Source: Microlunatus soli (GTDB lineage: Bacteria > Actinomycetota > Actinomycetes > Propionibacteriales > Propionibacteriaceae). Taken from it: a stretch of 64,000 nt of DNA. Position 1 is the stretch's first letter; each line of letters begins with the position of its first letter. The notes under the pieces are model-generated. The model saw only the letters and a list, made by a program, of their open reading frames with translations, ran no database searches and was not told the DNA's origin. Positions 56,379 to 64,000 of the stretch are shown one piece after another. A program made the translations under genes and the position numbers. The stretch covers positions 4,960,001 to 5,024,000 of the forward strand of contig NZ_LT629772.1 in the NCBI RefSeq assembly GCF_900105385.1, in the 5' to 3' direction.

Positions 56379-56825
56379 ATGCCTCGTCTCAATCTGAGCA
56401 AGACCTCTGCCGAGGGTTACCGGGCGGTGTACGGACTGGAGAAATTCTCCTCCGAACATGTCGAGTCGGAGATCTATCACCTGATCAAGCTCCGGTCCTC
56501 CCAGCTCAACGGGTGTGCGTTCTGCGTCGACATGCACGGCAGCCAGATGCTGGAGAGCGGCGTGCCGTTCCGCAAGATCAACTCGGTGGCGGCATGGCGT
56601 GAGGTCGGCTGGTTCAGCGACCGGGAACGGGCTGCGCTGGAGCTTGCCGAGCAGGTCACGCTGTTGCCCGGCGGTGTCCCCGACGACGTGTGGAACGCTG
56701 CGGCGGAGGTCTTCGACGAGACCGAGCTGGCCAACTTGTTGATCGCGATCGCGACCATCAACGTGTGGAACCGGCTGATGGTCAGCACCCAGGCCGAGCC
56801 GAATCCGCCGGCCTTGGCCGGCTGA
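56379..56825 (+). CDS. Carboxymuconolactone decarboxylase/AhpD-like protein (COE of ECF41)
   Basis: A 148-residue CMD-family protein. Helix EIYHLIKLRSSQLNGCAFCVDMH carries the redox C-x2-C and the following His, as in AhpD. Catalytic Glu/Cys/His are thus present. Predicted to act as a peroxidase-like or thiol oxidoreductase. In many actinobacteria CMD/oxidoreductase/epimerase ('COE') genes sit beside ECF41 sigma genes and are their only target; the ECF41 gene is here convergent and abutting. ATG 56379. Confidence 0.88.
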   Translation: MPRLNLSKTSAEGYRAVYGLEKFSSEHVESEIYHLIKLRSSQLNGCAFCVDMHGSQMLESGVPFRKINSVAAWREVGWFSDRERAALELAEQVTLLPGGVPDDVWNAAAEVFDETELANLLIAIATINVWNRLMVSTQAEPNPPALAG

Positions 56826-57689
56826 TCACCTTTCCGCCGGCAGCTTGTCGGGGTTGGACAGGTCGTAGATCGCGATGATCTGATCACCTTCGACGTCGAG
56901 GGTGATCAGATGCCGATTTCCGGCCAACGTGATCTCGATGCCGGGTCGGTCGTTGACAGTGATCATGCCGGCGGCGGTCAACCGGTTGCGGCGGCCGATG
57001 CCGACCAGGAAGCGGGCGATCTTGGCCGGCCCGATGATCGGGTTGCGGGCTGCCTTGACCCGTCCACCACCGTCGGAGTAGTAGACGACATCGTCGTGTA
57101 GCAGCTTGATCAACTCGGCGCTGTCGCCGTGCTCCGCTGCGACCAGGAAGCTGTCCAGCAAGCGGCGGGTCAGCCGCTGTTGATCATCGTCGGTGTCGGG
57201 TGCCGTGGGGTCGGAGGTCCTGCCGAGCCGTCGCCGGCCACGGTGCTCGTGCTGCCGGGAGGCCGCTGCGGAGATCTCCAGCAGGGCACTGATCTCGTCG
57301 TGGGAGTAGTCCAGGGATCGCAGGATGATCACGGCTCGCTGGGTCGGGGTCAGCGATTCGGCCAGCCGGAGGAAGCCGATCGACAGGTCGGCGCGTTGGT
57401 CGGCGACGCGCTCCGGACCGGTGCTGTCGTCGCCGATCCGTGGCTCCGGCAGCCAGGGGCCGATGTAGTGCTGCCGTTCCCGCTTCCGGCGACGCAGCAG
57501 ATCCAGCGACCGGCGGATGGTGATCGTGGTCAGCCAGCCGGCGGGATTGTCCGGATCATGATCGCCACGGATCGACTCGACGGCGACGTCACCGATGACA
57601 TCTTCGGCATCGCTCCAGGACCCGAGCATCCGGTAGGCGATCCGGGTCAGCCGCTGCCGTTCCTCCGAGAGCACCTCGACGACCGTCAT
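56826..57689 (-). CDS. ECF41 family RNA polymerase sigma factor (SigJ-like)
   Basis: A 287-residue sigma factor. Region 2 is LTRIAYRMLGSWSDAEDVIG, region 4 is LTPTQRAVIILRSLDYSHDE followed by ISALLEISAAASRQHEHRGR. The C-terminal SnoaL-like extension has DGGGR (about 200) and a terminal YDLSNPDKL. The DGGGK/R and NPDKL motifs define ECF41, in which the C-terminal domain regulates the sigma activity instead of an anti-sigma factor. Target likely the adjoining CMD gene. Confidence 0.92.
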   Translation of the reverse strand: MTVVEVLSEERQRLTRIAYRMLGSWSDAEDVIGDVAVESIRGDHDPDNPAGWLTTITIRRSLDLLRRRKRERQHYIGPWLPEPRIGDDSTGPERVADQRADLSIGFLRLAESLTPTQRAVIILRSLDYSHDEISALLEISAAASRQHEHRGRRRLGRTSDPTAPDTDDDQQRLTRRLLDSFLVAAEHGDSAELIKLLHDDVVYYSDGGGRVKAARNPIIGPAKIARFLVGIGRRNRLTAAGMITVNDRPGIEITLAGNRHLITLDVEGDQIIAIYDLSNPDKLPAER

Positions 57690-57747
57690 GCTCCGATGAT
57701 CGCACGGTGGCGCCGGACAGCACAGCGAGACTGGGCCCCGCGGAAGA

Positions 57748-59847
57748 TCAGTCGTCGGCGTTCCGCGGCCGGATCCCGACGGCGTCCAGAAGTTTGCCGA
57801 TCCGGGCGATCTCCTCGGCGTCGACAGGCATCAGTGGCGGTGCGGGTCGGACCGAATCGATCACTCCGAGGTAGCGCAGCGCCGCCTTGACCGCGCCGAT
57901 CGAGGACGAGCTGGCGCTGATCCGTCCGCGATCGGGGACACCAAGGATCTCGAACAGGCCGAGCACCCGTTGTTGCTCGGCCTGTGCCTCGGCAAGCCTG
58001 CCGCTGCGGACCTGCTCGATGATCGTGACGAACATCGCGGTGTCGACGTTGGCGATCCCGGGGATGATGCCGTCGACGCCGAGCAGCACCGACAGGTCCG
58101 CAGTCACCTCCGAACCGGTCAGGATCGACAGCCCGGTCAGGCCGGCCGCCGTCCGTCCGGTGATCAATCGCCGTAGGTCGGGAAGGGATCCGCTGGAGTC
58201 CTTGATCCCGCTGATCACGCCGTCGGCGGCCAGCTTGATCATCAGCTCCGGCGCGATTCTGGTGCCGGAACGGGACGGGATGTTGTACGCCAGCAGGGGA
58301 GTATCGCCGATGGCGGCGGCGATCATCCGGAAATGCTGTTCGATCTCGGCCGGGTGCGTCGCGACGTAGAACGGAGCCGTGGCCACCAGCGCGGAGGCTC
58401 CGGCGGCGATCGCGTCGGTGGCGAGCTCGATCGCGGCCTCGGTCGACGGTGCCAGGATGCCGACCAGCACAGGTCCCCGGCCGGCGACCGCCCGGACGGT
58501 CGCACCGATCAGTTCGCTTCGTCGGCCCGCGCCGAACGAGGTGCCCTCGCCGGTGCTGCCGAGCACGAAGACACCACTCGCCCCGCCGTCGAACACATGA
58601 TCAACGAGCCGGTTCAGCGAGGAGTGGTCGAGGTCGCCGGTGTCGGTCAGCGGCGTGACCAGGGGCGGGATCACCCCGGCGAACCGCGGGGTCGTCGGAA
58701 TCCGTTGCGCTGCATCACCTTCTTCGTCCTCGTTGACGTTCGGGGTTTCGGTGATCAGATCGGCCGTCGCCCGGACGGTGAAACGGATCTCCTCATTCGA
58801 CGCCGCGGAGCCGGCCTCGTACAGGACGGCGACCCGATCCTGGTCGAGCAGCGCGAGGTCGGAGTAGCCGGAGAAGCCGGAGTTGATCATGGCACCGCGG
58901 CGCCAGGTCGATGCGTCGTCGCTGACGAAGATCGTCAGGTCCTGGCGGCTGGACTGTCGGGCCGGCGTGCTCAGCAGCAGCAGCCGACCGTCCGGGCTGA
59001 TCAGACTGCCCTGGATGTCCGGGGCGCTGACCCGTCGGCAGTCGGTGTAACGGTGGGCGAGGGTCTCGCCGCCGTCCTGCGAAACGGCCTGCACCCGGCG
59101 GCCGCGGGTGCCGTGGTAGTTGCGGGCGTTGAAGATCACCCGGCCGTCGGCGAGCTCGGCAACCGTTGTCTCGTTGGGATTGATCGCATCACCCTGATGC
59201 TCGGCGACGAAGCCGATCCGCCAGCTGCGTCCGCCGTCGTCGCTGAGGATGCAGTGCCCGCCGTACAGCGCATCCCGGTCGTCGGGAACGACGCCGTCGG
59301 CCGGGATGATCGAATGGTTGGCCGGCACCACCAGGCGGCCGCGATGGGCGCCGTGCTGCAGGGCGATGCCGTGGCAGGGGCCGGTCGCGTACCAGCCCCA
59401 GTCCGGTCGGCTGACCTGGTCGGTGATCTCCACCGGGTCGGTCCAGGTCAGGCCGAGGTCGGGGCTGCGCTGGACATAGACCCGGCGCGCGTCCCCGGGA
59501 TCGGCCGCGCCCTGGACGATCGCCGACTCCCGGGTGCCGGCTCCGTTCTGGGTGCTGACCAACACGACGTCACCGGAGGCAGGGTCGAGGATCGGCACCG
59601 GATTGCCGCAGGTCTTCGCCTCGACCCGGCACACGACCTGCAACGGCTGCCAACTCCGTCCGCCGTCCACGGACCGGCGCAACACCAGCTCGATCGGACC
59701 GTGATCGGCTGAGGACTCGATCCGGCCCTCGCAGAAGGCCAGCAGCAGCGGATCGGCGCCGGCGCCGGGCGCCGGGATCGCCAGCAGGGCAGGGATCCGG
59801 AAGGTGTTGTAGTCGGTGCCGGCGGGATCAAACGGAGGCGATGACAT
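57748..59847 (-). CDS. Sialidase / DapA-NanA-family aldolase fusion protein
   Basis: A 699-residue cytoplasmic fusion without signal peptide. Residues 1-365 are a GH33-type sialidase: FRIP (16-19), FCEGRIESSADHG with the acid/base Asp, four or five Asp boxes (for example SVDGGRSW at 59-66, SDDGGRSW at 202-209), NETTVAEL with the Glu, Arg-rich NARNYHGTRGRR, and GYSDLALL with the Tyr nucleophile. An acidic linker (VNEDEEGDAA) leads to a TIM-barrel aldolase (390-699) with GSTGEG, LLAYNIPSRSG (Tyr521) and SGIKDSSG (Schiff-base Lys549). It should release sialic acid and cleave it to ManNAc and pyruvate. The aldolase could also be another DapA-family lyase, since YNIPSRSG resembles DapA too. The ATG lies inside the operator. 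Confidence 0.88.
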   Translation of the reverse strand: MSSPPFDPAGTDYNTFRIPALLAIPAPGAGADPLLLAFCEGRIESSADHGPIELVLRRSVDGGRSWQPLQVVCRVEAKTCGNPVPILDPASGDVVLVSTQNGAGTRESAIVQGAADPGDARRVYVQRSPDLGLTWTDPVEITDQVSRPDWGWYATGPCHGIALQHGAHRGRLVVPANHSIIPADGVVPDDRDALYGGHCILSDDGGRSWRIGFVAEHQGDAINPNETTVAELADGRVIFNARNYHGTRGRRVQAVSQDGGETLAHRYTDCRRVSAPDIQGSLISPDGRLLLLSTPARQSSRQDLTIFVSDDASTWRRGAMINSGFSGYSDLALLDQDRVAVLYEAGSAASNEEIRFTVRATADLITETPNVNEDEEGDAAQRIPTTPRFAGVIPPLVTPLTDTGDLDHSSLNRLVDHVFDGGASGVFVLGSTGEGTSFGAGRRSELIGATVRAVAGRGPVLVGILAPSTEAAIELATDAIAAGASALVATAPFYVATHPAEIEQHFRMIAAAIGDTPLLAYNIPSRSGTRIAPELMIKLAADGVISGIKDSSGSLPDLRRLITGRTAAGLTGLSILTGSEVTADLSVLLGVDGIIPGIANVDTAMFVTIIEQVRSGRLAEAQAEQQRVLGLFEILGVPDRGRISASSSSIGAVKAALRYLGVIDSVRPAPPLMPVDAEEIARIGKLLDAVGIRPRNADD

Positions 59848-59863
59848 GGGACGTACTATGTCA
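59842..59863. promoter_or_regulatory. Palindromic operator covering the start codon of the sialidase-aldolase gene
   Basis: TGACATGG at one end and CTATGTCA at the other flank the centre GACGTA. It differs at one base from the perfect palindrome at 61826-61847. The minus-strand ATG 59847 lies within it, no Shine-Dalgarno precedes, and CATAGT on the minus strand lies seven bases upstream of the ATG like a -10 element, so a leaderless mRNA is likely. Confidence 0.75.
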
Positions 59864-59993
59864 TGCCGCCCGGGTGGCCACAATGGACGACGCCCGTCGT
59901 CGACGGAATCTCGTCGCGTGCCAATGCCGATGACACCTGCTCCGGGTCGTGGGATCCTGAGCAGCGAATATCGGGGGTCGGAAGGGGACCGGA

Positions 59994-60968
59994 GTGCTCG
60001 ACTTCATTCTTGATCCGCAGGTCCTCGGGCAGACCTACTTCACGATCTCGCCACTGGCCGAGGCGGCCTTGAGTCTGCACCAACTCGGCCGTCGGCACGA
60101 CGCGATCCACGCACGCTGGCGCTCGAGGGTGCGTGATCGACTCGCCGACCTCGATCTACCCCTGTTGTTGGCGGCCGTCCCGCCGGGGCCGCGGTTCGCC
60201 GACTGCCTGCTCTCGCCGGCCCCGATCTCGCGGACCCGGATCGAGGACCAGTTGGACGATCTGGTGAAGGTCGAACCGGCGATACTGGCCGCCGACCTGG
60301 GGTTCGTCTGGGGTGCACAGTTGCCGCCGCGGCTCCGCGACCTGGTGGACGCCGGTTCCGACGGGCCGGCCCGGCTGGCCGACCGGTTCGCCGAGTATTG
60401 GGAACGGGTCCTGCGTGACGTCTGGCCGCGGATGCTCGCCGTCCTCGAGGCCGACATCCGCCGTCGCAGCGTCGCCTTGTCCGGTGCCGGGCTGTATCGG
60501 TTGCTGGAGGGGGTGCACCCGGAGATCACGGTCGAGCACGGGACGATGCGCGTCGACAAACCTCATCTGCCTCCGGAGACGCTGCACGCCTCGGCGATGA
60601 CGTTGACCCCGTCGATCTTCGGTTGGCCGAACCTGATCATCCAGGACGGCGAACGTGGCAGGTTCGGGCTGATCTACGGCGCCCAGGGAGTGGCGACGAC
60701 CTGGGAGGGATTGCATTCTGCGCCCAGGCTGGGCGGTGATCAACTGGCGTTGTTGCTCGGCCGGACGAGGGCCGAGATCCTGCGTCGAGCAGACCTGCCG
60801 ATCAACACAACTCAGCTCGCCCGCGAGCTCGGTCAGAGCCTCGGGTCGGTCAACGAGCACCTGACACTGCTGCGCGACAGCGGCCTGCTGGAAAGTAACA
60901 GGCAAGGTCGTTCGGTGCTCTACAGTCAGACCGCGCTGGCGCGTTCCCTGGTCAGTGCGCAGGACTGA
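59994..60968 (+). CDS. ArsR-type winged-helix regulator with N-terminal effector-like domain
   Basis: A 324-residue protein. The first about 235 residues form an all-alpha/beta domain seen in actinobacterial DUF5937-type proteins (MLDFILDPQVLGQTYFTISP). The C-terminal 80 residues are an ArsR-like winged helix (TTQLARELGQSLGSVNEHLTLLRDSGLLESNRQGRSV split here as TTQLARELGQSLGSVNEHLT and LLESNRQGRSVLY). GTG 59994 is the start. It sits between the fusion gene and the GntR regulator; whether it takes part in sialic acid control is unknown. Confidence 0.8.
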   Translation: MLDFILDPQVLGQTYFTISPLAEAALSLHQLGRRHDAIHARWRSRVRDRLADLDLPLLLAAVPPGPRFADCLLSPAPISRTRIEDQLDDLVKVEPAILAADLGFVWGAQLPPRLRDLVDAGSDGPARLADRFAEYWERVLRDVWPRMLAVLEADIRRRSVALSGAGLYRLLEGVHPEITVEHGTMRVDKPHLPPETLHASAMTLTPSIFGWPNLIIQDGERGRFGLIYGAQGVATTWEGLHSAPRLGGDQLALLLGRTRAEILRRADLPINTTQLARELGQSLGSVNEHLTLLRDSGLLESNRQGRSVLYSQTALARSLVSAQD

Positions 60969-60984
60969 CAGCGTCGGCCCGAGA

Positions 60985-61749
60985 TCACGTCTCGGTGGCG
61001 TCGAAGCGGACCCGGATGCCGGTGAAATGATCTTTCATCGCGCGGGTGAAGTCAGCGGCCGAGTTCTTCTTGATCGCTTCCAGCAGATTGCGATGCCAGC
61101 GGGCGGCGTCGGCCGGCGTGTAATGATCACCGGGTAGTCGCTCGTTGACCTCGGCGAAGGTGCGCCAGAAGACGCTCAGCAGGTCGATGATCAGCCGGTT
61201 GTCCAACGGTGCGTACAGGGTGCGGTGGAAGTCCAGATCCTGCTCGGCGAAGGTCTGCCCCCGGGCGGCCATCTGCTCCATCGTGTCGACGATCTCGGCG
61301 AGCCGCTCGTAGCCGGTGCCCCGATAATGCGCGATCACCTGGTCGGCCAGGCCGACCTCGAGGGCTTCGCGGACGTCGAGCACGTCGCGGACGTCACGGA
61401 GGTCGCCGGCCATCGACTGGGTCATCCGGAAGGCGAGCCCGTCCTCGAGTGATCGCAGCGAGAGGGTCCCGACGTAGGTGCCGTGACCATGTCTGATCTC
61501 GACGATGCCGACGGCTTCCAGCGCCTTCATCGCCTCCCGCAGCGGATGCCTGCCGACACCCAGCTGGTTCATCAACTGTTGCTCGGTGGGCAGTGGGTCG
61601 CCGGGCCCGAGATCGCCGGTCAGGATCAGGGACTTGACCTGCTTCTTGATGAAGTTCTGGTTGTCCAGCGCCGTCCGCGGACGGCTCCGGGTGGTGGAGG
61701 TCTCGGCCGTTTCTGCGGCGGTCTGCTTACTGTCGGGCGGTGGACTCAC
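60985..61749 (-). CDS. GntR/FadR family transcriptional regulator (candidate NanR-like)
   Basis: A 254-residue FadR-type regulator. The N-terminal winged helix has SLILTGDLGPGDPLPTEQQL and LGVGRHPLREAMKALEAVGI (canonical GntR HTH). The C-terminal FCD domain has DLDFHRTLYAPLDNRLI and a final AAIKDHF-like segment (MKDHFTGI) with metal-binding His. It lies between two near-identical palindromes, one in front of the importer and one at the fusion gene start, and is the natural candidate to bind them, with sialic acid or a derivative as effector. Start ATG 61749. Confidence 0.88.
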   Translation of the reverse strand: MSPPPDSKQTAAETAETSTTRSRPRTALDNQNFIKKQVKSLILTGDLGPGDPLPTEQQLMNQLGVGRHPLREAMKALEAVGIVEIRHGHGTYVGTLSLRSLEDGLAFRMTQSMAGDLRDVRDVLDVREALEVGLADQVIAHYRGTGYERLAEIVDTMEQMAARGQTFAEQDLDFHRTLYAPLDNRLIIDLLSVFWRTFAEVNERLPGDHYTPADAARWHRNLLEAIKKNSAADFTRAMKDHFTGIRVRFDATET

Positions 61750-61825
61750 AGGGACACCTCTAGCACACCGGACGCCGTGCTGCTGGCGCTGCCGGGCCGG
61801 ACGAATTGCGACGGCGAAGGGTTGA

Positions 61826-61847
61826 TGACATAGGACGTACTATGTCA
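61826..61847. promoter_or_regulatory. Perfect-arm operator upstream of the oligosaccharide importer
   Basis: TGACATAG and CTATGTCA, perfect 8-base arms around GACGTA. TACTAT (61838-61843) inside it could be the -10 element of the importer promoter. It is 56 bases upstream of ATG 61904 and also between this gene and the divergent GntR gene, so it may control both. Confidence 0.75.
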
Positions 61848-61903
61848 TGCTGCCGAGGCAGACCGACAGGTCGGCGTCGTTCCATCGAGGGAGATGGTCT
61901 TTC

Positions 61904-63523
61904 ATGTCGTATGCATTCAGTCGCCGGACCGCACTCGCCGGCAGTGTCTCGATCGCGGCGGTGGCCGGCCTCGGCGGCCTCACCGGATGTTCCAGCAGCA
62001 AGTCCGACCAGGCGGTGGCCAACGCCAAGGTGACGTTGCCGAGCTATCGGCCGTTGTCGACGGTCAAGCCGGATCTGCCCGGCGACGATGTGATCCTGGA
62101 CGGATTCCTGTCCTATCCCGCCGATCCCCGACGGTCGGTGCAGGGCACCATGGGTGACGGCAAACCGATCACCTTCATGACCAACATCCCCGGCGCCATC
62201 CCGCCGTCGGTGGACAAGAACGCGTTCTGGCAGCAGCTCAACGATCGGCTCGGCAGCGAGCTGCAGATCAGCATGTCCTCCAACGACGAGTACCCGAAGA
62301 AGTTCGCGACCAGGATCGCCGGAGATGATCTTCCCGACATCCTGAACATCCCTACCACCACGCCGCAGCTACCGGCGCTGGTCAAGGCCAAGTGTGTCGA
62401 CCTGACCGAGCAACTCAGCGGGGACGCGATCAAGAAGTATCCGAATCTGGCCAACCTCCCGACCGAGGCATGGCGCGGCTGTGTCTTCAACGGCGCGATC
62501 TACGGAGTGCCGGTGGTGCGGTTGATGTCGCGTACGTCCGGACCGCTGTACCGGGAGGATCTGCTGGCCGAACACGGCATCACCGATCCGGCGCCGAAGG
62601 ACTTCGCCGCCTTCCGCGACATCTGCGTGGAGATGACCGACACCAAACGGAACCGCTGGTCCTGGGCAGTGCCGCCGACGAACTACGTCAAGCAGATGCT
62701 GGGGATCGGGCCGGGCTGGACCGAGAAGGGCGGCACCTTCACCCACGCCAACGAGTCCGACAAGGTGCCGCAGGCGTTGGAGGCGGTGCGCACGATGTAC
62801 GCCGACAATCTGATCAATCCCGACGCCCTGACCTCCGGTGCCAGCGCACAGAAGGAGTGGTTCGGCGGCGGGATCGTCAGCTTCGTCTACGACTCCTACG
62901 TCGCCTGGAACCAGTTCTACGCCGACAACACCTCGGTGAAGGGATTCGAGGTCAACATGCTCGACGTACCGGGCTTCGACGGCGGCGACGGTACGCCGTG
63001 GATGGGTGCTGCGCTGAACAATCTGACCGCCTTCACCCAGGGATCCGACCACAAGATCGACACCCTGCTGGCGTTGGCCGACTGGATGGCCGCACCGTTC
63101 GGCACCGAGGAATACCTGTTTCGCAAGTACGGCGTGCCGGGCACCGATTTTTCCTTGCAGGGCAGCGATCCGGTCCCCAACGCCAAGGGAGTCCTGGAGA
63201 CCGGGATCGGATTGCAGTACATCTGCGACTCCCGGATGGCGCTCTACCTGGCCGGCAAGCCCGAGGTGCCGAAGAAGCAGCAGCAGCGCCAGCGTTCGGT
63301 CAAGCCGCGACTGGTCCGCGACGAGTCGTACGGGCTGTACTCGGAGACGATGTCGAAGACGGGGCCGACGATCGACGGCACCCTGAACGACCTGCAGACC
63401 CAGATCATCGCCGGCCGGAAACCGGTGTCGGCCTGGAAACAGGGTGTACAGGACTGGCTGGCCGGCGGTGGTGAAAGGATCCGCGCCGAGCTGCAGAAGG
63501 CCCACGCCGATGTCGCTGGCTAG
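61904..63523 (+). CDS. Extracellular solute-binding lipoprotein (LplA-like, family 1)
   Basis: A 539-residue lipoprotein. The signal has twin arginines (FSRRTALAGS) and lipobox LTGC with Cys at about 29, suggesting Tat export. The mature part is a large family-1 sugar/oligosaccharide binding protein: NAFWQQLNDRLGSELQISMS, GRSWAVPPTN-like loops, and a DGTPWMGAALNNLTAF region. This length is typical of LplA/YtcQ-type proteins that serve LplB/YtcP permeases. Predicted ligand: sialosides or sialylated oligosaccharides, from context. GAGGGAG precedes ATG 61904. It overlaps the permease start by 14 bases. Confidence 0.88.
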   Translation: MSYAFSRRTALAGSVSIAAVAGLGGLTGCSSSKSDQAVANAKVTLPSYRPLSTVKPDLPGDDVILDGFLSYPADPRRSVQGTMGDGKPITFMTNIPGAIPPSVDKNAFWQQLNDRLGSELQISMSSNDEYPKKFATRIAGDDLPDILNIPTTTPQLPALVKAKCVDLTEQLSGDAIKKYPNLANLPTEAWRGCVFNGAIYGVPVVRLMSRTSGPLYREDLLAEHGITDPAPKDFAAFRDICVEMTDTKRNRWSWAVPPTNYVKQMLGIGPGWTEKGGTFTHANESDKVPQALEAVRTMYADNLINPDALTSGASAQKEWFGGGIVSFVYDSYVAWNQFYADNTSVKGFEVNMLDVPGFDGGDGTPWMGAALNNLTAFTQGSDHKIDTLLALADWMAAPFGTEEYLFRKYGVPGTDFSLQGSDPVPNAKGVLETGIGLQYICDSRMALYLAGKPEVPKKQQQRQRSVKPRLVRDESYGLYSETMSKTGPTIDGTLNDLQTQIIAGRKPVSAWKQGVQDWLAGGGERIRAELQKAHADVAG

Positions 63524-64000
63524 CCGATCTGTTGAGCGGTCCTCGGCTCCCGATCACGACCCGGTCACAGCGTCGCCCGCGGCGAGCCGGCCCACCGCGG
63601 CCCGCCGTCGCGGCGTCTGGTCCAAGCTCTGGCGGGATCGGGTGTTGATCTTGTTCTGCCTACCAGGGTTGGCGGTGATCATCGGTTTCCACTACCTGCC
63701 GCTGCTGGGCAACGTCATCGCCTTCAAGGATTATCAGCCGTTCCTCGGCATCGCCGGCAGTGACTGGTCCGGACTGGACAACTTTGCGGTGATCTTCGGC
63801 GGCGATTCCCAGTTCCTGAACGCCCTGAAGAACACACTGATCCTGACAGCGCTGCAATCGGTGTTTGTCTTTCCGGCGCCGATCCTGCTGGCCCTGCTGC
63901 TCAACTCGCTGCTGTCGGAGTCGATCAAGCGGATCGTGCAGAGTGTGCTCTACCTGCCGCACTTCCTGTCCTGGGTGATGGTGGTCGCCCTGTTCCAGTC
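63510..64000 (+). CDS. Sugar ABC transporter permease (LplB/MalF type), 3' end outside window
   Basis: ATG 63510 lies inside the binding-protein gene. The frame reads MSLASRSVERSSAPDHDPVT, then a basic stretch (RRRGVWSKLWRDR), the first helix VLILFCLPGLAVIIGFHYLPL, then NVIAFKDYQPFLG, and helices ALKNTLILTALQSVFVFPAPILLALLLN and SVLYLPHFLSWVMVVALF. AFKDY and LPHFLSW are hallmarks of LplB permeases. It forms the channel with a second permease and an ATPase presumably beyond the edge. Open at base 64000. Confidence 0.88.
   Translation, partial: MSLASRSVERSSAPDHDPVTASPAASRPTAARRRGVWSKLWRDRVLILFCLPGLAVIIGFHYLPLLGNVIAFKDYQPFLGIAGSDWSGLDNFAVIFGGDSQFLNALKNTLILTALQSVFVFPAPILLALLLNSLLSESIKRIVQSVLYLPHFLSWVMVVALFQ

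Follow-up and report, generated by a model that had tools for sequence, protein, structure and literature searches.

Gene content of the locus

The window analyzed here, a stretch of 64,000 nucleotides of the Microlunatus soli genome, carries on its minus strand, from 59847 to 57748, a single frame of 699 codons without an internal stop (57748..59847; ATG at 59847, stop codon at 57750-57748). The plus strand of this stretch is interrupted by stops in the frame that was read. The encoded protein of 699 residues is composed of a GH33-type sialidase (approximately residues 1-365), a linker of about 22 residues, and a DapA/NanA-family aldolase barrel (residues 388-688). Pfam assigns BNR_2 to residues 36-332 (2.7e-31) and DHDPS to residues 389-688 (1.4e-54), each above the curated cut-off. 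The structure model of the fused protein (mean pLDDT 72.6, pTM 0.53, alignment of 10 rows) is good for fold naming only.

The genome, assembled as one contig of 6,732,914 bases with 100% completeness, contains the identical uninterrupted frame. Frame reading and genome copy agree with the first-pass annotation, which had reported this frame from the letters of the window. The fusion in the Microlunatus soli assembly is real.

Several transport and regulatory genes accompany the fused gene. A GntR/FCD regulator gene (60985..61749, minus strand) is divergent from the gene of an ABC solute-binding protein (61904..63523, plus strand; Pfam SBP_bac_8), whose longest frame starts at 61847 and whose N-terminus appears, by eye, to hold a twin-arginine motif and a lipobox-like motif. 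It is followed by ABC permease 1 (63570..64000, plus strand; Pfam BPD_transp_1), which runs past the window end, and by a second BPD_transp_1 permease outside the window. No gene for an ABC ATPase turned up in the portion read around the transporter, a common situation when a single ATPase serves many transporters. Directly behind the permeases, at about 65427-66785 and thus outside the window, lies a sulfatase gene (L057 9428-10786, plus strand), whose nearest model is choline-sulfatase, below its cut-off, and which perhaps points to sulfated substrates. A gene combining DUF5937 with an ArsR-like HTH (59994-60968, plus strand) separates the fused gene from the GntR gene; it is absent from the other clusters read. 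At 56379-57689, a SigJ-like sigma factor gene adjoins a carboxymuconolactone-decarboxylase-like gene. A promoter scan of 57400-62000 gave no sigma-70-like site for the fused gene.

The sialidase half

The sialidase half (58753..59847, minus strand) has as its best solved relative the sialidase of Micromonospora viridifaciens (1eur, 1.1e-27). The Arg triad, the Asp, the Glu/Tyr pair, and the Asp boxes that mark GH33 are all found: Arg17 (in FRIP), Asp48, Glu226, Arg242, Arg301, and Tyr328 are present, with Asp boxes at 59, 128, and 202 plus an incomplete one at 309. Catalytic residues were placed by the alignment with 1eur, Asp48 and Glu226 being matched by their spacing to the next Arg; the gapped HMMER alignment shifts Asp48 by one column from Asp92 and Glu226 by two columns from Glu260. 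Pfam and the 1eur alignment confirm the sialidase landmarks previously noticed in residues 1-365, except that the nucleophile, given there as Tyr329, is Tyr328. Going by these residues, the sialidase half would be hydrolytic on alpha-sialosides.

Propeller fold and catalytic residues are the same as in the Micromonospora viridifaciens enzyme (1eur, 1w8n; GH33), but that sialidase is secreted, whereas the fused protein appears to lack a signal peptide and has a C-terminal lyase. Matches of relatives to the sialidase half begin at residue 5 or 6 and the FRIP Arg is residue 17; hence, a signal peptide would not fit. A parallel in this respect is NanH of Clostridium perfringens, described in an excerpt of PMC4509764 as an intracellular sialidase co-regulated with the nan operon: both sialidases are devoid of a signal peptide and occur in organisms with a sialic acid lyase operon. 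NanH is, however, a separate protein, and the NanR of C. perfringens belongs to the RpiR family and uses a different site.

With the sialidase half as query, no other place in the genome matched at 1e-3, while a search with the BNR_2 profile gave eight places, seven of them outside the fused gene.

The aldolase half

The aldolase half (residues 388-699; 57751..58686, minus strand) was recognized from Pfam DHDPS, its 5c54 match, and Foldseek. Its nearest solved relative is the N-acetylneuraminate lyase (NAL) of Corynebacterium glutamicum, CgNal (5c54, 1.3e-74), followed at 8.6e-36 by the next entry other than CgNal; in agreement with this ranking, the top Foldseek hits of the modeled aldolase half are 5c55 and 5c54. 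Active-site residues are GSTGE at 430-434, Tyr521, and Lys549, the last at the very position previously proposed for the Schiff base. CgNal is about 40-46% alike across the whole lyase half, and the equivalents of its GxxGE, Tyr138, Lys166, and Glu198 are all kept. It differs in being a free enzyme and in two residues, Thr199 and Ser143, which are Val and Arg in the fused lyase.

The aldolase half scores 85.7 bits against the NCBIfam nanA model (cut-off 382), and the best NCBIfam model, dapA TIGR00674, yields 150.9 bits against a cut-off of 206.15. Since NAL and DapA models both remain below their cut-offs, the half is named from its kinship, genomic context, and residues. The sugar-binding set of the E. 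coli type (Asp191, Glu192, Ser208) is absent and replaced by a CgNal-like GSE/GIIPG pattern; CgNal itself is without the E. coli-type set, as stated in an excerpt of PMC5380162, which further reports that CgNal cleaves and makes Neu5Ac, also has DHDPS activity, and groups with DHDPS. With the Schiff-base Lys, the Tyr, the GxxGE motif, and the closest kinship to CgNal in place, an assignment as lyase of the C. glutamicum NAL type is supported by the sequence comparisons. That the aldolase half is instead a dihydrodipicolinate synthase or another pyruvate aldolase unconnected with the use of sialic acid is most improbable: dapA is indeed the best-scoring model, albeit below its cut-off, but the nearest characterized relative is a NAL, the lyase is a conserved neighbor of the sialidase (see below), and the genome contains further genes of the DHDPS family.

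Homologs at loci without a sialidase are mostly linked to sialic acid genes. NanE is encoded beside 13 of 16 distinct loci and NagB beside one (17 loci were fetched, of which L009 and L044 coincide, and only a few kb were seen around each). Microlunatus soli itself has a separate operon of lyase, ROK kinase, and NanE (nanA-nanK-nanE; L061 7297-9834, minus strand) at about 2.864-2.867 Mb, roughly 2.15 Mb away, whose lyase is 42% like the fused one. The Arg in the YNIPSR motif of the lyase was considered as a mark of a different substrate class and rejected, as nanE-linked homologs also have Arg.

A 22-bp site shared by the fused gene and the transporter

A near-palindrome, TGACATAGTACGTCCYATGTC, is common to the sialidase starts of the relatives. 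In the window, the operator-like 22-mer TGACATAGTACGTCCCATGTCA (59842..59863, minus strand) overlaps the ATG of the fused gene, the position conserved at the sialidase start of the relatives, and a second operator-like 22-mer, reading TGACATAGTACGTCCTATGTCA on the minus strand (61826..61847, listed without orientation), is located between the divergent genes of the GntR regulator and the solute-binding protein. These were the only copies in the window, and 100 shuffles gave none. Within 3 mismatches, the 22-mer occurs at only two places in the 6.73-Mb genome (0 in the reversed-pattern control); the same scan did not find it at the nanA-nanK-nanE operon.

Among 97 genomes of the order, 26 contain the site within one mismatch, amounting to 28 sites. 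The vast majority (24 of 28) lie no more than 40 bases upstream of a sialidase match or overlap its start; two of the others precede a lyase, one precedes the Microlunatus soli transporter gene, and one is unplaced. One Kribbella genome carries a second copy, differing by one mismatch, outside its sialidase cluster (G261:C1:4212968-4212988).

NanR (PRK03837) is the best NCBIfam model for the regulator, though at 101.7 of the 260 bits of its cut-off. A GntR homolog adjoins the sialidase-lyase pair in all 13 sialidase-first loci examined, and a homolog of the solute-binding protein is found in 12 of the 13, the 19 kb read for genome G003 being without one. The GntR/FCD protein is probably the regulator of both 22-bp sites.

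Unfused relatives and the origin of the fusion

In 29 genomes, sialidase and lyase are separate neighboring genes on one strand with the sialidase first, the same order as in the fusion. The same tabulation contains five genomes with the lyase first and three with the genes on opposite strands. We refer to neighboring sialidase, lyase, and GntR genes with the 22-bp site at the sialidase start as the conserved Propionibacteriales cluster; all of these elements are found at the fused locus. The unfused clusters of Kribbella and Microlunatus share its genes, order, regulator, and 22-bp site, the differences being that the fused locus has one gene instead of two and the extra HTH gene between fusion and regulator. 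The first-pass annotation had missed that the halves of the fusion are a conserved pair of neighboring genes in the relatives.

The unfused pairs are tightly spaced. In three Kribbella genomes counted in addition to the 29 (G207, G224, and G273), sialidase and lyase share a frame, separated by one TGA and 12-24 bases between the genes. In the nearest relative, G003, with about 63% and 64% identity to the two halves, the TGA that ends the sialidase and the start codon of the lyase overlap within GTGA; the pair in G009 overlaps by 4 bases, likewise that in G019. A lyase spread over two reading frames adjoins the sialidase in Kribbella G198 (L082 8618-9542, minus strand), and a NanA-family gene of Alienimonas chondri (Planctomycetota) immediately precedes a sialidase gene (L025 8692-11240, plus strand).

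In the trees, the sialidase half is nearest to G003 (99/97), and so is the lyase half (89/83), inside a group with G012 (100/99). The sialidase-linked lyases of these clusters form a group (98/97), apart from the nanKE-linked lyases; an exception is G740, whose lyase falls outside the group despite a similar gene cluster. As both halves are nearest to G003, the fusion most probably arose in situ by the joining of neighboring genes. Chance can be dismissed, because both halves are full domains and the closest relatives of both are neighbors in G003. Comparison of the loci shows the protein to have arisen in the Microlunatus soli lineage when two neighboring genes, overlapping or almost touching and still separate in relatives, were fused.

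The junction retains possible traces of this event. The linker (approximately residues 366-387; 58687..58752, minus strand) is, as previously described, short and acidic, the acidic residues lying at its start (NEDEEGD), and is modeled as disordered, with pLDDT below 50 at 368-387 of the predicted structure. By eye, a purine-rich GAAGAAGG at the linker occupies the place of the ribosome-binding-like AGGAAGG before the lyase start of G003, and an ATG in another frame comes after it. The GAAGAAGG element looks like a relic of the former ribosome-binding site of the lyase. From codon 321 to codon 391 of the fused frame there is no in-frame ATG, GTG, or TTG; an internal start at GTG392 is possible, but it would fall within the barrel's first strand and cut the aldolase domain. 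Across the junction, GC at the third codon position (GC3) continues to exceed that at the other two, with values of 0.76-0.80 in 45-codon intervals containing the linker and 0.84-0.96 in those entirely within the sialidase part.

These features bear on an assembly or sequencing artefact, in which an error would join the frames of two genes that are really separate. Such an error would fit the two genes in all relatives seen, the GAAGAAGG element at the AGGAAGG place with its out-of-frame ATG (by eye), and the slight GC3 dip, and a second record of the species was not found. However, the genome is a single contig of full completeness, the interval between codons 321 and 391 holds no in-frame start for a separate lyase, and one indel would, by our reasoning, make the sialidase frame overlap the lyase far beyond the few bases seen in relatives. 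We consider an artefact very improbable.

Search for further fusions

A search for the same domain order in other proteins, as the first-pass annotation had proposed, revealed no second sialidase-lyase fusion in approximately 1,040 different actinobacterial genomes. These come from overlapping sets of 20 (genus), 198 (family), 391 (order), 394 (class), and 296 (phylum) genomes plus 38 Kribbella genomes; in the order, class, and phylum searches, the best 2-3 candidates per genome were scored at a listing threshold of 1e-60 (1e-75 for the phylum). A fusion family of its own is thereby ruled out for the genus, family, order, class, phylum, and Kribbella sets. A scan of genome contigs gave 25 loci, none with a fusion among ORFs of at least 150 codons; within the loci fetched for this check, the Microlunatus soli fusion was the only ORF with both domains. 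Plasmid records contained no match covering 80% of the fused protein. No match was obtained at 1e-66 in 277 genomes of another phylum, a search which also missed the known relative in the set's center genome and so carries no weight.

The open-licence full texts searched yielded no account of a naturally occurring sialidase-lyase fusion, consistent with the earlier remark that no example was known. The fusion stands alone, a single step removed from a conserved operon and seen in this one genome only.

Being a lone case without a sign of selection for the fusion, it might be neutral, with one half inactive or with the linker, short and modeled as disordered, being cut to give two ordinary enzymes. 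Both halves, though, keep their catalytic residues, and we regard neutrality as quite improbable.

Proposed function

Taken together, we favor, at a probability of roughly 0.68, a bifunctional cytosolic enzyme, encoded in a cluster for sialoside use, that would have arisen by fusion of operon neighbors. A lipoprotein-dependent ABC transporter would import a small sialoside whole; the sialidase half, judged by its residues, would free the terminal sialic acid in the cytosol; and the lyase half, by analogy to its C. glutamicum relative, would cleave it via Schiff-base Lys549 to pyruvate and N-acetylmannosamine, which the distant nanA-nanK-nanE operon may take on. As long as no inducer is present, the NanR-like GntR protein would keep both the fused gene and the transporter repressed by acting at their common 22-bp site. 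Channeling between the sialidase and lyase sites is possible. A cytoplasmic enzyme acting on imported sialosides had been suggested earlier; the complete catalytic set, the missing signal peptide, the CgNal-type aldolase, and an ABC transporter sharing the operator-like site now speak for it.

Against this explanation count the occurrence in one genome only, the NCBIfam scores of the lyase half, which are higher for dapA than for nanA, the DHDPS activity and grouping of CgNal, the ATPase gene not found near the transporter, and the placement of the G740 lyase. The fused locus also has no nanK or nanE of its own. Together with the lack of the 22-mer at the nanA-nanK-nanE operon, this leaves room for a different inducer or substrate, perhaps a nonulosonic acid other than Neu5Ac. 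The same architecture could serve Kdn or a related residue from the wall polymers of actinobacteria, or else a sulfated sialoside. The sialidase half would then work as a Kdnase-like exo-hydrolase, and the products of the lyase would be pyruvate and mannose (or another hexose), so that nanK and nanE would be unneeded. The genome already possesses the separate operon without the site, the tree sets sialidase-linked lyases apart from nanKE-linked ones, and the sulfatase gene behind the permeases would fit as well. NALs also accept Kdn, and this alternative therefore overlaps with the Neu5Ac reading; moreover, the residue at Ser143 of CgNal, Arg in the fused lyase, fails to separate the groups. 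Also in favor of this alternative, Kribbella carries most of the unfused clusters, and its walls are reported to contain teichulosonic acid (excerpt of PMC6113628). On balance, another substrate seems unlikely. Its more specific form, a two-step intracellular enzyme dedicated to non-Neu5Ac nonulosonic acids (e.g., Kdn from the wall polymers of neighboring actinobacteria), in which the unstable sugar acid would be handed from propeller to barrel within one tetramer, is slightly less likely still.

If one chain indeed carries out two successive steps in the degradation of sialic acid, it would offer a natural model for asking whether joining a glycosidase to the lyase speeds the pathway, and the unfused homologs are ready controls for such a comparison. 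A natural sialidase-lyase chain may also serve sialic acid chemistry. Beyond the fusion itself, the 22-bp site and the GntR protein outline a compact system for sialosides or nonulosonates among soil actinobacteria. These are not animal-associated, which raises the question of which sialic acid they meet.
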